From Candidatus Eiseniibacteriota bacterium (lineage in GTDB: Bacteria > Joyebacterota > Joyebacteria > Joyebacterales > Joyebacteraceae), in the NCBI GenBank assembly GCA_030595835.1, contig JAUVLG010000008.1:1-54468 (forward strand): DNA of 54,468 nt, written 5' to 3'. Numbering within the stretch: the first letter of the stretch is position 1; each line of letters begins with the position of its first letter. Of this stretch, positions 16,375 to 21,991 are shown one piece after another. The notes under the pieces were generated by a model. That model was not told the DNA's origin. It searched no databases and saw only the letters and a list, made by a program, of their open reading frames with translations. The position numbers and the translations under genes are program-made.

Positions 16375-16449
16375 GCGGGAATAGCTCAGTGGTAGAGCGC
16401 CACCTTGCCAAGGTGGATGTCGCGGGTTCGAGCCCCGTTTCCCGCTCCA
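16375..16449 (+). tRNA. tRNA-Gly (GCC)
   Basis: A 75-base cloverleaf. The acceptor stem GCGGGAA pairs with TTCCCGC, followed by an encoded CCA end. The D-loop has AGCTCAGTGGTAGAGC, the anticodon loop is TTGCCAA within a CACCT/AGGTG stem, and the T-arm is GCGGGTTCGAGCCCCGT. The anticodon GCC reads glycine codons GGC and GGU. First of three tRNAs sharing a promoter. Confidence 0.95.
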
Positions 16450-16461
16450 GAGCGCGACAGG

Positions 16462-16486
16462 CAGGGGCGGTTTGCGCACGCCCCTG
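16462..16486 (+). other. Hairpin between tRNA-Gly and tRNA-Cys
   Basis: CAGGGGCG (16462-16469) pairs perfectly with CGCCCCTG (16479-16486) around a 9-base loop. No T-run follows, so a processing or stabilising element is more likely than a terminator. Confidence 0.5.
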
Positions 16487-16498
16487 TCGTCGTCAATA

Positions 16499-16572
16499 GG
16501 CGGCGTAGCCAAGTGGTAAGGCAGAGGACTGCAAATCCTTGAGCACCGGTTCGAATCCGGTCGCCGCCTCCA
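16499..16572 (+). tRNA. tRNA-Cys (GCA)
   Basis: A 74-base cloverleaf. The acceptor stem GGCGGCG pairs with CGCCGCC, followed by T and an encoded CCA. The anticodon loop CTGCAAA carries GCA, and the T-arm is CCGGTTCGAATCCGG. Second gene of the three-tRNA cluster. Confidence 0.95.
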
Positions 16573-16581
16573 GTGAATTCG

Positions 16582-16639
16582 CCGGTGGTCTGGTTCCTTA
16601 TGGGACGGGAGATCGTCCCGTCCGGGCATCGGCCACCGG
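16582..16639 (+). other. Two-tier hairpin between tRNA-Cys and tRNA-Leu
   Basis: An inner stem GGACGGGA/TCCCGTCC (16603-16610 with 16616-16623) sits inside an outer stem, CCGGTGGTC (16582-16590) with GGCCACCGG (16631-16639), which has one G-U pair. No T-run follows. It could be an RNase processing signal. Confidence 0.45.
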
Positions 16640-16651
16640 TTTGCTGTGCCT

Positions 16652-16741
16652 GCCGGGGTGGCGAAACTGGTAGACGCATCGGACTTAAAATCCGTTGAGG
16701 CCTAGCGTCTCGTGCCGGTTCGATTCCGGCCCCCGGCACCA
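16652..16741 (+). tRNA. tRNA-Leu (TAA)
   Basis: A 90-base type II tRNA with a long variable arm. The acceptor stem GCCGGGG pairs with CCCCGGC, followed by A and an encoded CCA. The anticodon loop CTTAAAA carries TAA and reads UUA/UUG. The T-arm is GCCGGTTCGATTCCGGC. Last gene of the cluster. Confidence 0.95.
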
Positions 16742-16922: not shown

Positions 16923-16992
16923 ATCTAGCAGGAATATTAGGAACCGCGGATATTCACGCTACAGGAGCTGAGGCTTGGGGAGGCAGGGTCGT

Positions 16993-19191
16993 ATGGCCGT
17001 CAAGGGGGGAGCGATTAGAGACAGGGATCCATCGCGAAGGTGGGCGTTGGCTGCCTGGGGACTAGCGCTGGGCGCGTTTCTTCTTGTTGGTGTAGCCGAT
17101 GAGTCGTGGGCGGCGCATTCGTACCCGCGGCTCGTGAACATCTACTTCCCGTCGCTGGGTGAGGTCGACCTGGAGCTGCTTTCACGATGGGACCTGCTGG
17201 TGCTATCGAAGCGCGCGGAGGACCTGCATCAGGCGGAGCTTGCTGAGCTCCGTGTCCTGAACCCCGACGTCACTATGATTGTGCACATGGCGGTTGGCTA
17301 CAGCAGCGACTTCACGGAGCCTCCGATCAATGGCGATCTGACGGCGGCGCTCTATGCGAACGGGTGGTGGATGAGAGACACGGCGGGCGGGAGGATTGGT
17401 TTCGGCAGCGAGCATGGCACCGAGAACTTCCTGTTGAACATGACGCTGGAGTGCCCGACGAACGCGGAGGGGCAGAGGCTGTGCGAGTGGTTGCCGGAGT
17501 ACATCGCCGATAGGCTGTACGAGGGCGGTCGCTGGGACGGCATCTTCCTGGACTACTGCCTCAAGGGCGTGGCGTGGTTGGATGGACATCTGGACTATCC
17601 GATTGACCACGACCTGGATGGCGAGCCTGCGGCCGCGGAGGACCTCAACGAGAGCTGGCGCCTAGGCATGCGGGAGTGCGTCTCGAGGATTCGAGACCTG
17701 GTCGGGGACGAGTTCCTTCTGGTCGGGAACGGGAACAACACGCTGTACGACGTGTGCGATGGGAACACGCGTGAGAGCTTCCCTGAGATGCACGGCGATT
17801 GGTACGACAACATGATGAATGAGGAACACGGATACCTCGCGTACGAGGCGCTCTATCGCAAGCCAACCACCAGCATCATCAACACGATATGGCGCGGGGA
17901 CGTCACGCCGGACGGACCGGTGAGATACGGGGATTTCGACCGGAAGTTCCTCCTCGGTCTCACGAGCACGCTGGTCTTCGGCAGCGGGTACTTCTCGTGC
18001 GACGGTCCCATCCACTCTGAGACGTGGTGGATCGAGTACTACGACATCGATCTGGGGCAGCCGCTCGGGCGTGCCGAGGACGTCGATGTGCCTGCGGGCC
18101 CCGTGCCCCCGTGGGTCGAATTCATCAAGACACGGCGCTTCGAGAACGGCATTGCCGTCGTCAACCCGTGTCGCTGGAGCATCGACATCGCGCTCGGAGG
18201 GGCGTACTACGACATCCACTCGTGGAACGGGCAGTTCTACGAGTTCAGCGGGATGCGAACGAGCGTGCGGCTTAGCTCACAGACGGGGGAGGTGCTCGTT
18301 GGTGCGGGCGTCGTTCCGGAGCACAAGATAGGCTCAGCGAATGCAGTGGCTAGCCGTGACGCCGTCGTTCTGACGTGGGACCACGTCGACGGCGCGAGCT
18401 CCTACAGTATCTACCGCGCGAAGGTGGACAGCAGCGGGACCCCCCAGGGAAAGGTGCTCGTCACGGTCGTCGAGGAGCCGTTCTACATCGACCGAGATCT
18501 TGTGGGCGCGAGCGGCTACCGCTACTACATCGCGCCCATCGATGCACTGAAGTGCGAGGGGCGGCAGTCACGTGCTATAGTAGTATCGGCAGAACCGGGG
18601 AGCGTCCTGCCCATAGTGCTCATGGTCGATGAGCTTGACGGGCTGCCGACCCTCCACTGGAATCCCCCGGTCGACTCCTCTCCGCCGTTCGTGAGCTATG
18701 ACCTCTGGCGGACGAGGGAGGGCGGCGAGAGGACCAGGCTCGCGGACGGACCTCTGACGTCGAGCATGACCAGGTACACCGACGCTAGCGTCGAGCCCGG
18801 ATGCAGCTACGTCTACGAGATCGTGGTTCGATCCGGAGGCGTTGAGGAGACGCTCGCTTCAGCGCGGGCGACCGTGCCCGAGGTTGGGGAGCGCTACCGC
18901 ACCTCACTCGCCGGCGTGTGGCCGCAGCCCGCCAGACTGCGGGCTTCAGTTGCCTTCACGCTGGCCGACAGCGGCGCTTGGGCGGAGACGTACACGACGC
19001 GGCTCAGCGTCTACGATGTGGCCGGCAGGCTCGTGCGTCGTTTGGTCGAGGGCGCGCTCGAGCCCGGGCAGTACGTCCGGCAGTGGGACCTGAAGAACGG
19101 CGCGGGCTCGGGGGTTGCCTCCGGCTGCTACTTCTTCGTACTGGAGCACGGTCAGGAGCAGGTGACCTCCAAGGTCCTCGTGCTCAAGTAG
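16993..19191 (+). CDS. Secreted glycoside-hydrolase-like protein (GHL15 type) with C-terminal sorting-like domain
   Basis: A protein of about 732 residues. A signal or anchor segment (about residues 20-40, ending SWAA) is followed by a TIM-barrel-like region with WDLLVLSKR, VTMIVHMAVGY and WDGIFLDYC, resembling the putative glycosyl hydrolase family GHL15. The aspartates of FLDY and DHDLDG are candidate acidic residues. Two fibronectin-III-like repeats follow (about 445-545 and 545-635), then a terminal FlgD/T9SS-like domain with VYDVAGRLVRRL, a W-D pair and SGCYFFVLE, ending in KVLVLK. ATG 16993 follows GGGGAGG at 16977-16983. A sigma-54-like promoter lies upstream and a strong terminator downstream, so it is probably its own transcription unit. 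Its substrate is unknown. Confidence 0.7.
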   Translation: MAVKGGAIRDRDPSRRWALAAWGLALGAFLLVGVADESWAAHSYPRLVNIYFPSLGEVDLELLSRWDLLVLSKRAEDLHQAELAELRVLNPDVTMIVHMAVGYSSDFTEPPINGDLTAALYANGWWMRDTAGGRIGFGSEHGTENFLLNMTLECPTNAEGQRLCEWLPEYIADRLYEGGRWDGIFLDYCLKGVAWLDGHLDYPIDHDLDGEPAAAEDLNESWRLGMRECVSRIRDLVGDEFLLVGNGNNTLYDVCDGNTRESFPEMHGDWYDNMMNEEHGYLAYEALYRKPTTSIINTIWRGDVTPDGPVRYGDFDRKFLLGLTSTLVFGSGYFSCDGPIHSETWWIEYYDIDLGQPLGRAEDVDVPAGPVPPWVEFIKTRRFENGIAVVNPCRWSIDIALGGAYYDIHSWNGQFYEFSGMRTSVRLSSQTGEVLVGAGVVPEHKIGSANAVASRDAVVLTWDHVDGASSYSIYRAKVDSSGTPQGKVLVTVVEEPFYIDRDLVGASGYRYYIAPIDALKCEGRQSRAIVVSAEPGSVLPIVLMVDELDGLPTLHWNPPVDSSPPFVSYDLWRTREGGERTRLADGPLTSSMTRYTDASVEPGCSYVYEIVVRSGGVEETLASARATVPEVGERYRTSLAGVWPQPARLRASVAFTLADSGAWAETYTTRLSVYDVAGRLVRRLVEGALEPGQYVRQWDLKNGAGSGVASGCYFFVLEHGQEQVTSKVLVLK

Positions 19192-19392: not shown

Positions 19393-20061
19393 ATGAACTG
19401 GGTAGATATCATCATTGTGATCGTACTTGCGACCGGTCTGGTCAAGGGGCTGGCGAACGGGTTCGTGCGAGGGATCTTCGGGATCGCCGCTCTTGTGCTC
19501 GGCGTCGTGGTTGCGGCGGGCAACTACGAGCAGGTGACGGAGGTTCTGTTCTCGCGCCTGCAGATAGGCGCGCAGGGTCAGATGATCCTCGGATTCCTGG
19601 TTGTCTTCGTCGTCGTGCTCATCCTCGTCAGCGTAGTCGGCCGCATAATCGCCAAGGCTCTCAAGCTGGCATCGCTGGGCTGGATGGACAGACTTGCCGG
19701 GGGCCTGCTCGGTCTGATCATGGCCTGCGTCTTCACGGGTGTGCTCCTGCTCCTTGTCGTGATGGCCGGGTTGCAGGGCAACACCGGTGTTGCGAGGTCG
19801 ATCGTCGCACCCACGGTCATCGGCGTGATGGACACCATAGTAGCGTATGCGCCCGACGTGGCGCGCGATATGATAGACGAACACTACCTTGAGCTTCGCG
19901 TGGAGTGGGAGAAGGCCAAGCGAGAGCCGCCGCGCGAGGAGGAGGGTGAGGAGGAACAGAGCGTCGCCCTCATCTATTCGGAGCCGCGCATCACGGCCGG
20001 CGTGCCGGCGCTTGATTTTACGGTTGGGAACCGCACGGGGGTTGCGGCCGGTGGCGCGTGA
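19393..20061 (+). CDS. cvpA: CvpA-family membrane protein
   Basis: A 222-residue inner-membrane protein. It starts MNWVDIIIVIVLATGLVKGLANGFVRG, the conserved CvpA opening, and has four hydrophobic helices within the first 130 residues, including a WMDRLAGGLLGL segment. The remaining 90 residues are charged and probably cytoplasmic, with an acidic EEEGEEEQS patch. CvpA proteins are linked to colicin V production and envelope-stress tolerance; their biochemical role is not settled. ATG 19393 follows GGAGGG. An upstream in-frame extension is not protein-like. The stop overlaps the start of the Clp-like gene by about 11 bases. Confidence 0.85.
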   Translation: MNWVDIIIVIVLATGLVKGLANGFVRGIFGIAALVLGVVVAAGNYEQVTEVLFSRLQIGAQGQMILGFLVVFVVVLILVSVVGRIIAKALKLASLGWMDRLAGGLLGLIMACVFTGVLLLLVVMAGLQGNTGVARSIVAPTVIGVMDTIVAYAPDVARDMIDEHYLELRVEWEKAKREPPREEEGEEEQSVALIYSEPRITAGVPALDFTVGNRTGVAAGGA

Positions 20062-21991
20062 ACCCGACGACTCGAAAGGACTGAGCGCCCCCCATGGGTC
20101 TGGTGACGTCGCCAACGTCCCCAACGCTGGCAGCACTGCGGAGTTGCGCGGCGACGCGGCGCCGGGTGCGGACGAGGGCGTGGAGACACCGGGCATGTCC
20201 GTCCTCGGTCAGCTGGGGATAGATCTGACGGAGATCGCCGCGGGGCTTGAGATCACGCTCGACGGCGAGTTGTGGGGAACCGAGCTCAGACAGATCAAGG
20301 AGATACTCGAGCGACGGGAGCGCCACTCCGGTGTCCTGGTCGGACCCGACGGGGTGGGCAAACGGGCGCTCGTCCTCACGCTGGCCCGCGAAATATCGCA
20401 GGGTCAGGTCCCGCGCCGGCTGGTAGGCCGGCGTATCATCGAACTTCCTTTTCACAGAGTTCTGGCCAGCGTCCGCGAGGCCGGCGATTTCGAGAAGATC
20501 GTGTTCAGCGCTCTCAGAGAGGCCACGGTCCGTGAGGACGTCATCCTGTTTCTGAACGGGATCACGAGCTTCATGGGCGTGACTGCCGTGGGGGCCCGGG
20601 GCGGTCTGTTCAATGCTTCCTACCTGCTGGAGATGGGATGCCACCAGCCGGGGCTCTACCTCTTGGGCAGCACTACTCCCGAGCTCTTCCGGGAGGTGCT
20701 GCGCTCTCTTCCATGGTGCGAGAACCTCTTTCAGCGTGTCGACGTGCGCGAACCGAGCAGAGAGACAACTGTCGAAGTCCTGAGGGACGCCGCGCGCGGA
20801 CTGGAGGAGTTCCACGGCGTCCGTTTTGGCGCCGGCGCCGTCGAGGCAGCCGTCAACCTGTCCGACGAGTACATCCGCGAGCGTGTTCTTCCCGGGAAGG
20901 CGCTCGACCTCCTGGATCGCACCGCATCGAAGTCGGCGACCTCGGTCGCGGGCACGGACACGGTTCCCCTGGTGGGCGTCGAGCAGGTGAAGGACGCGCT
21001 GGCTGACTGGACGGGGATACCGTCTGAGAAGCTGTCGGGCGCGGGGCACGCGGAGCTGGTGGGGTTGGAGGAAGGACTTCGCAAGAGGATCAGAGGACAG
21101 GACGGATGCATCAAGAAGCTGGCGGACGTCATTCGCGTCACCAAACTCAATCTGAACGCGGTCCCGGCGCGCCCGGATGGTGTCTTCCTGTTCGTCGGGC
21201 CGAGTGGCGTGGGGAAGACGGAGCTTGCACGTGCCCTGGCGGAGGAACTCTACGGCATTGAGTCGCGGCTTCTGACGTTCAACATGGCCCGGTACGGGGC
21301 GGAGGACGGACTGCCGCGCCTGGTCGGAGTGCAGTCGGGAGACGTGGAGTACGAGGGGGAGCTGACGACCGCCGTAGCGCAGCACCCGCACTCGGTGATA
21401 GTCTTCGAGCATATCGAGCGCACGCACATCGATGTCGCCGTCATGCTGACGCAGATCTTCCATGACGGGTACGTCGTCGACGGCCGCGGCTCCAAACTAC
21501 CCCTGTCGAACTGCACCATCATCATGACCTCCAACTCCGAGAACATCGTTCCGAGCAGGGACGACGACGGCACCGTGGGGTTCGGGGCCGTCAATCACAA
21601 CACGAGCGAGCGCTATCTCCAGCAGGCGAAGGATGCCATCGAGGAGTTCTTCCCTCCGGAGTTCATGGATGGTATCGACGAGGTGCTTCTCTTCGATCCT
21701 CTGACCAACGACGCGCTCAGGGAGATCGTCCAGATCCACCTCAGGGACATCCACGAGCGGCTGGCTCGCCGCTCCATCTCGCTTGACGTCTCGGACGAAG
21801 CGGTAATGAAGATAGTGGAGAAGGGGGCGAGTCGGGAGTACGGGGCGCGCAACCTCGGCAGAACCGTTGAGGGTCTGCTACTCAAGCCGCTGGCGCGATT
21901 CCTGGTCGCCAACCCCGACGCGCGCAGAGTGGCCGCGCGCGTGGTCGAGGGAGACGTCGAGGTCGTGTCACTGAACGGCGGGCGGGAGTGA
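20051..21991 (+). CDS. Clp/Hsp100-like AAA+ protein with degenerate ATPase sites
   Basis: About 646 residues with two AAA+ modules in ClpB/ClpC order and no repeat-type Clp N-domain. Module 1 has Walker A GPDGVGKR (98-105, Arg in place of Thr/Ser), N169-G170 where Walker B needs Asp-Glu, and ENLFQ where the usual ERRFQ arginine fingers are. The EEFHGV and LPGKALDLLD motifs confirm the family. Module 2 has an intact GPSGVGKT (383-390) and a TSN sensor, but E453-H454 replaces Asp-Glu, and PEFMDGID replaces PEFxNRID, losing that arginine finger too. It may still bind nucleotide but is predicted to hydrolyse poorly. GTG 20051, inside cvpA, is preferred; the Shine-Dalgarno is weak. The pairing with cvpA suggests a shared envelope or stress role. 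Confidence 0.8.
   Translation: MAREPDDSKGLSAPHGSGDVANVPNAGSTAELRGDAAPGADEGVETPGMSVLGQLGIDLTEIAAGLEITLDGELWGTELRQIKEILERRERHSGVLVGPDGVGKRALVLTLAREISQGQVPRRLVGRRIIELPFHRVLASVREAGDFEKIVFSALREATVREDVILFLNGITSFMGVTAVGARGGLFNASYLLEMGCHQPGLYLLGSTTPELFREVLRSLPWCENLFQRVDVREPSRETTVEVLRDAARGLEEFHGVRFGAGAVEAAVNLSDEYIRERVLPGKALDLLDRTASKSATSVAGTDTVPLVGVEQVKDALADWTGIPSEKLSGAGHAELVGLEEGLRKRIRGQDGCIKKLADVIRVTKLNLNAVPARPDGVFLFVGPSGVGKTELARALAEELYGIESRLLTFNMARYGAEDGLPRLVGVQSGDVEYEGELTTAVAQHPHSVIVFEHIERTHIDVAVMLTQIFHDGYVVDGRGSKLPLSNCTIIMTSNSENIVPSRDDDGTVGFGAVNHNTSERYLQQAKDAIEEFFPPEFMDGIDEVLLFDPLTNDALREIVQIHLRDIHERLARRSISLDVSDEAVMKIVEKGASREYGARNLGRTVEGLLLKPLARFLVANPDARRVAARVVEGDVEVVSLNGGRE

Follow-up and report, generated by a model that had tools for sequence, protein, structure and literature searches.

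Among the Hsp100/Clp proteins, ClpA, ClpC and ClpX dock on ClpP via a hydrophobic-Gly-Phe/Leu tripeptide that is plugged into pockets of ClpP, and ClpB works without ClpP. In Hsp100 proteins the Walker B Glu is the catalytic base; it acts within its own subunit, and the arginine fingers of AAA+ proteins act between subunits. To our knowledge, the well-studied bacterial partners of ClpP that dock by a hydrophobic-Gly-Phe loop are ATP-driven motors, and we know of no bacterial Hsp100 branch in which the motor was lost and the ClpP dock kept. Plants possess degenerate relatives of Hsp100, and the protease side of Clp has known inactive subunits. The plant SMXL/D53 proteins are eukaryotic regulators with a double Clp-N domain, for which we know of no role with ClpP. 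Compartmental proteases also have members without catalytic activity or partners that act independently of ATP, such as plastid ClpR and ClpT and the proteasome activator Bpa/PafE (PMC6508832, PMC4243950, PMC10415612). They provide a precedent for how the protein described below might work, but they have other folds or belong to the protease side, and none of them is an ATPase-dead two-module Hsp100. Searches of the literature returned no bacterial pseudo-ATPase Hsp100 partner of ClpP, which does not prove that there is none. Judged from its sequence and those of its orthologues, the protein reported here belongs to an old lineage of pseudo-ATPases within the Hsp100/Clp family and, on balance, is probably a non-motor partner of ClpP.

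The pClp protein

The window (the whole stretch of DNA analysed, 54,468 nucleotides) belongs to a 2.85-Mb draft genome and contains an open reading frame to which we gave the working name pClp, for pseudo-ATPase Clp gene:

20051-21991, + strand: pClp gene, 646 aa, GTG start; two AAA+ modules (D1 and D2), without Clp N-domain and without M-domain
19393-20061, + strand: cvpA, Colicin_V family membrane protein, upstream neighbour given for context; its stop overlaps the pClp start

The gene begins 11 bases ahead of the end of cvpA and overlaps its stop codon (20059-20061), and in support of this start call, the proteins of several other genera begin with a similar head, [M/V]-x-R-E/D-x-D. Residues 1-48 show low conservation and no predicted structure. 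The Pfam matches above cut-off are AAA_2, AAA_lid_9 and ClpB_D2-small, which correspond to Clp-type lids and the D2-small domain; Pfam gave no match to Clp_N and the alignments show no insert in D1, hence both the ClpC-type repeat N-domain and the M-domain are absent. Pfam also detected no membrane or targeting domain and no added DNA- or receptor-binding domain. An alignment spanning both modules and fold matches to ClpC assign pClp to the class I Hsp100/Clp architecture, with ClpC chains from ClpC/ClpP complexes as the best structural matches; the AlphaFold model is a monomer of moderate confidence (pLDDT 74.8, pTM 0.58). NCBIfam puts pClp in the vicinity of ClpA and ClpB, but against the equivalogs ClpA, ClpB, ClpV, ClpK and ClpG the best score was 372.7 bits (ClpA), compared to a cut-off of 993.15. 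Close relatives of the gene, 85-89% identical, come from metagenome bins, some of them labelled Candidatus Eisenbacteria.

pClp shares with ClpC and ClpA the module order, the lids, the D2-small domain and the place of the docking tripeptide (see below), and with ClpA also the absence of the M-domain, but it differs from both in the loss of the Walker B pair, the arginine fingers, the pore aromatics and the N-domain, and falls far under the equivalog cut-offs. Identity to ClpC is 38% in D2. The modules of ClpB/Hsp104 are likewise homologous to those of pClp (about 38% identity in D2), but ClpB has all motor residues as well as an M-domain, and no ClpP tripeptide. With SMXL/D53, pClp has in common that a degenerate Hsp100-related protein was kept for a non-motor role; its similarity to SMAX1 is weak and limited to D2.

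Loss of motor residues in both modules

The original prediction proposed that neither module can hydrolyse ATP. In D1 it noted N169-G170 in place of the Walker B Asp-Glu, Arg in place of the Walker A Thr/Ser, and the disappearance of the ERR arginine fingers; in D2 it noted that GPSGVGKT is kept, while E453-H454 replaces Asp-Glu and PEFMDGID replaces PEFxNRID. We placed the motifs by two independent alignments, with solved ClpB/ClpC chains and with the ClpC and ClpB proteins of the same genome, and all of these columns were confirmed. Neither module shows an intact DE pair or a double arginine at any other place in these alignments, and the agreement of the two alignments, including the genome's own ClpC and ClpB, rules out a misalignment masking an intact motif. 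Site counts refer to 24 orthologues, with fragments lacking a given site omitted from that count; f1 denotes the family that holds all 20 genomes of the window's GTDB phylum, and f99 a family in a second phylum. The sites in D1 are:

20342-20365, + strand: Walker A GPDGVGKR (residues 98-105); R105 aligns with the Walker A Thr
20474-20485, + strand: pore loop REAG (142-145), standing for KYRG; the aromatic is gone
20540-20560, + strand: Walker B VILFLNG (164-170); N169-G170 stands for D-E
20720-20728, + strand: arginine-finger site E224-N225-L226, standing for E-R-R

The Walker A Thr/Ser site of D1 is occupied by Arg in 19 and by Gln in 3 of the 22 orthologues that have the site, no orthologue of the set has Glu at the Walker B Glu position, and a single Arg is left at the first finger position in 6/24 orthologues. 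The corresponding sites in D2 are:

21197-21220, + strand: Walker A GPSGVGKT (383-390), intact
21338-21349, + strand: pore loop GDVE (430-433), standing for GYVG, with a two-residue deletion
21395-21412, + strand: Walker B VIVFEH (449-454); E453-H454 aligns with D-E, the catalytic Glu being replaced by His
21656-21679, + strand: arginine-finger site PEFMDGID (536-543), PEFLNRID in canonical Clps; N-R is replaced by D-G, with G541 at the finger
21842-21850, + strand: sensor 2 GAR (598-600), intact

Across the 24 orthologues, the catalytic Glu position of D2 carries His (10), Gly (6), Gln (5), Asn (1), Ala (1) or Glu (1), and the arginine-finger position Gly (18), Ser (3) or Ala (3). The sole Glu is found in genome G013 (locus L064, VVVFEEIE), in a protein that has nonetheless lost the pore loop and the arginine finger. 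As this protein is nested among Gln-bearing relatives, the Glu looks like a reversion. Pore-loop aromatics occur in neither D1 nor D2 of any orthologue that has the sites, so that pClp, even with an energy supply, would be unable to thread polypeptides by the known mechanism. Apart from the G013 Glu and the residual D1 Arg, which are minor exceptions, the substitutions are conserved in the orthologues. Since they are universal in two phyla and the gene is under purifying selection (see below), the proposal that ATP hydrolysis is impossible in both modules is well supported; the same is true of the proposal that pClp is not an unfoldase, given the loss of the pore aromatics. The further suggestion that a partner supplies the missing residues holds as a possibility for the arginine fingers, but not for the Walker B Glu, which cannot be supplied.

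In the window's pClp the Walker A, sensor 1 and sensor 2 motifs of D2 are all intact, and every f1 member has GKT or GKS. D2 of f1 still has the Lys and the Thr/Ser, together with an acidic residue in Walker B and, for the most part, sensors 1 and 2, which makes binding of ATP without turnover likely; D2 would then probably retain ATP in a structural role, in effect a naturally occurring Walker B trap. In f99, Walker A reads GKN in 4/6 members and the sensor 2 Arg is kept in only 1/6, so ATP may not matter there at all; from these residues, nucleotide binding looks lost in most f99 members.

A conserved, putative ClpP-docking tripeptide

21575-21583, + strand: V509-G510-F511, proposed ClpP-docking tripeptide, in loop 501-521

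Between sensor 1 and the arginine-finger site of D2, pClp carries the docking tripeptide characteristic of ClpP-dependent ATPases of the ClpA/ClpC/ClpX type. VGF aligns with IGF in the ClpC protein of the same genome and with LGF in ClpA-type and f99 ClpC proteins, and the ClpB protein of the same genome has no hydrophobic-Gly-Phe tripeptide at the aligned place. It is invariant in 24/24 orthologues from both phyla and comprises the only invariant columns between alignment columns 496 and 528, the surrounding loop being variable; AlphaFold assigns loop 501-521 a pLDDT below 50. In such Clp-ATPase/ClpP complexes the docking loop is flexible. VGF is counted among the common binding epitopes of Clp-ATPases (PMC8745299), and in Staphylococcus aureus ClpC, where the motif is AGF, mutating the hydrophobic-GF motif abolishes ClpP binding (PMC12521514). 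From these sequence features we infer that pClp probably docks on ClpP, in which case the VGF loop of each subunit would enter a hydrophobic pocket on the ClpP ring face, as in ClpA/ClpC/ClpX; a motif of three residues could also be retained for a different partner. The original prediction had missed both the loss of the pore aromatics in the two modules and this tripeptide, which points to ClpP.

ClpP was detected by strong matches in 17/20 f1 and 6/7 f99 genomes, and the ClpP of the window's genome retains the Ser/His/Asp catalytic motifs. The f1 genomes without a match are G010, G019 and one that is 57% complete. In G010 and G019 the contig stops within the adjacent lon gene, so the absence is uninformative, and G010 does not count as a ClpP-less genome that would contradict docking. 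A canonical ClpC is encoded in 19/20 f1 and 7/7 f99 genomes, including all well-covered ones, and in none of the genomes inspected does pClp adjoin clpP. Both points count against a partnership with ClpP, the first in that a role of pClp on ClpP independent of ClpC is then no more than a possibility.

The usual gene order around clpP is tig-clpP-clpX-lon. Among the clpP regions L182, L183 and L186 (genomes G000, G011 and G007, respectively), lon follows directly after clpP in G011 and G007, with the order tig-clpP-lon in G007, and the ClpX zinc domain was not found in the four f1 genomes searched (G000, G010, G011 and G019). Taken together, gene order and the zinc-domain search suggest a loss of ClpX in the window's phylum. 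We rejected a role of pClp as a stand-in for the missing ClpX because the f99 genome G383 has both proteins and retains tig-clpP-clpX.

Phylogenetic distribution and selection

A strong match to pClp is present in 19/20 f1 genomes, and a fragment in the 20th, which is the 57% complete one. The f99 group (6/7 genomes) was identified by a profile search of 386 genomes, in which its members scored 521-549 bits versus 432 bits and below for canonical Clps; a second set of 386 genomes, chosen around f99, revealed no third group. High-scoring proteins from G043, G072, G141, G146, G211, G082, G066 and G259 possess canonical motor motifs in the second module and are not part of the pClp branch. In the tree, f1 and f99 group together in a single clade that excludes the canonical D2 sequences (support 100/99, to be taken with caution because of long branches), which makes a single origin of the degenerate branch most likely. 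For eight pairs, dN/dS over residues 49-640 is 0.07-0.21. Between genera, pClp proteins are 55-61% identical, compared to 80-87% for ClpC.

The branch nearest to the pClp clade (93/80) is represented by a protein from G072 (L129), in which TPR-like repeats are fused to a Clp of two modules; its motor residues are canonical, and it carries LGF as the tripeptide.

Proposed function and alternatives

Under selection the motor was lost while the dock was maintained. A non-motor partner of ClpP is the most economical reading of pClp. Being unable to pull, pClp would govern entry to ClpP. It might do so by forming its own ring, a cap or gate-opener, or by joining ClpC rings as an inert subunit that carries substrates or limits their delivery; the data do not discriminate between the two forms. 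That a ring of pClp opens or gates ClpP without ATP, in analogy to Bpa or PA28 for proteasomes, is conceivable, if unlikely; should it be true, ClpP would have a second, energy-free mode of degradation in these bacteria. The pClp branch separates docking from unfolding by natural selection, so that the effect of docking alone on ClpP becomes testable in a natural protein, a matter of relevance to the mode of action of acyldepsipeptides and other ClpP activators. The branch is perhaps the most clear-cut example of a pseudo-Hsp100 in bacteria.

The inert-subunit form can be stated more specifically: pClp could be a regulatory subunit of mixed hexamers with ClpC, where its VGF loop would contribute to docking, and the ring would turn over more slowly owing to its inactive sites and its lack of arginine fingers. 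We regard this sub-case of the ClpP-partner explanation as possible but somewhat doubtful. The co-occurrence of canonical ClpC described above speaks for it, as does the retention in f1 of the D2 ATP-binding pocket and the D2-small domain, which support ring assembly; however, pClp lacks the N-domain and M-domain through which ClpC is controlled, is distant from ClpC (38% in D2) and evolves faster (55-61% versus 80-87% identity between genera). A nucleotide-gated interface between pClp and ClpC is doubtful as well, because the P-loop and sensor 2 also erode in f99. Distinctly less probable is that pClp has left ClpP behind and now serves as a scaffold in signalling or regulation, like plant SMXL/D53, with VGF kept for another partner or for folding. 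Plants do have degenerate Clp-related regulatory proteins, and SMAX1 is among the sequence matches of pClp, but the VGF loop has no predicted structure, only the docking residues are kept in it, and no DNA- or receptor-binding domain has been added. The intact Walker A and sensors of D2 in the window and the E-E pair of one orthologue could be taken to indicate residual, slow ATP hydrolysis in which E453 or a different acid acts as the base and ClpC provides a finger; we consider this highly improbable, as residues as different as H, Q, N, A and G occur at the catalytic position, the Walker A Ser/Thr is lost in 4/6 f99 members, and E453 replaces the metal-binding Asp rather than the base. As for a functionless, decaying paralogue, the loss of catalytic residues and a rate faster than that of ClpC are what it would predict, but the data on selection and distribution already refute it: dN/dS is low (0.07-0.21), the gene occurs in 20/20 and 6/7 genomes with full-length open frames, and its origin is single and ancient.

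Gene neighbourhood

The gene neighbourhood bears on one more alternative, an envelope-associated scaffold acting with CvpA, as the original prediction had taken the coupling to cvpA to suggest an envelope function. It is true that cvpA lies directly upstream of pClp in every f1 genome whose contig shows the spot, with overlapping frames in the window. However, cvpA is one link in a fixed f1 block of ten genes, galT-glgA-GHL15-cvpA-pClp-aldH-infC-rplT-pheS-pheT, eight others of which are equally fixed, and no cvpA match was found in the 15.6-18 kb covered by each of three f99 loci, so cvpA gives no specific clue and the suggestion is not supported. Moreover, pClp has no membrane or targeting domain according to Pfam, and the scaffold would leave VGF unexplained; we find this alternative hardly probable, and prefer the interpretation of pClp as a ClpP partner.

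At the f99 loci (L137, L138 and L139) pClp is divergently oriented to a conserved lipoprotein-like gene with weak TPR similarity. In the window, the region between glgA and cvpA (16975-19191) encodes a GHL15-like hypothetical glycosyl hydrolase with an FlgD-type C-terminal domain; orthologues are found at L058, L059, L060 and L063, and genomes G016, G009, G007 and G013 have two tandem copies. Positions 16375-16741 of the window comprise three tandem tRNA genes (Gly, Cys and Leu), antisense to which small spurious ORFs are called.
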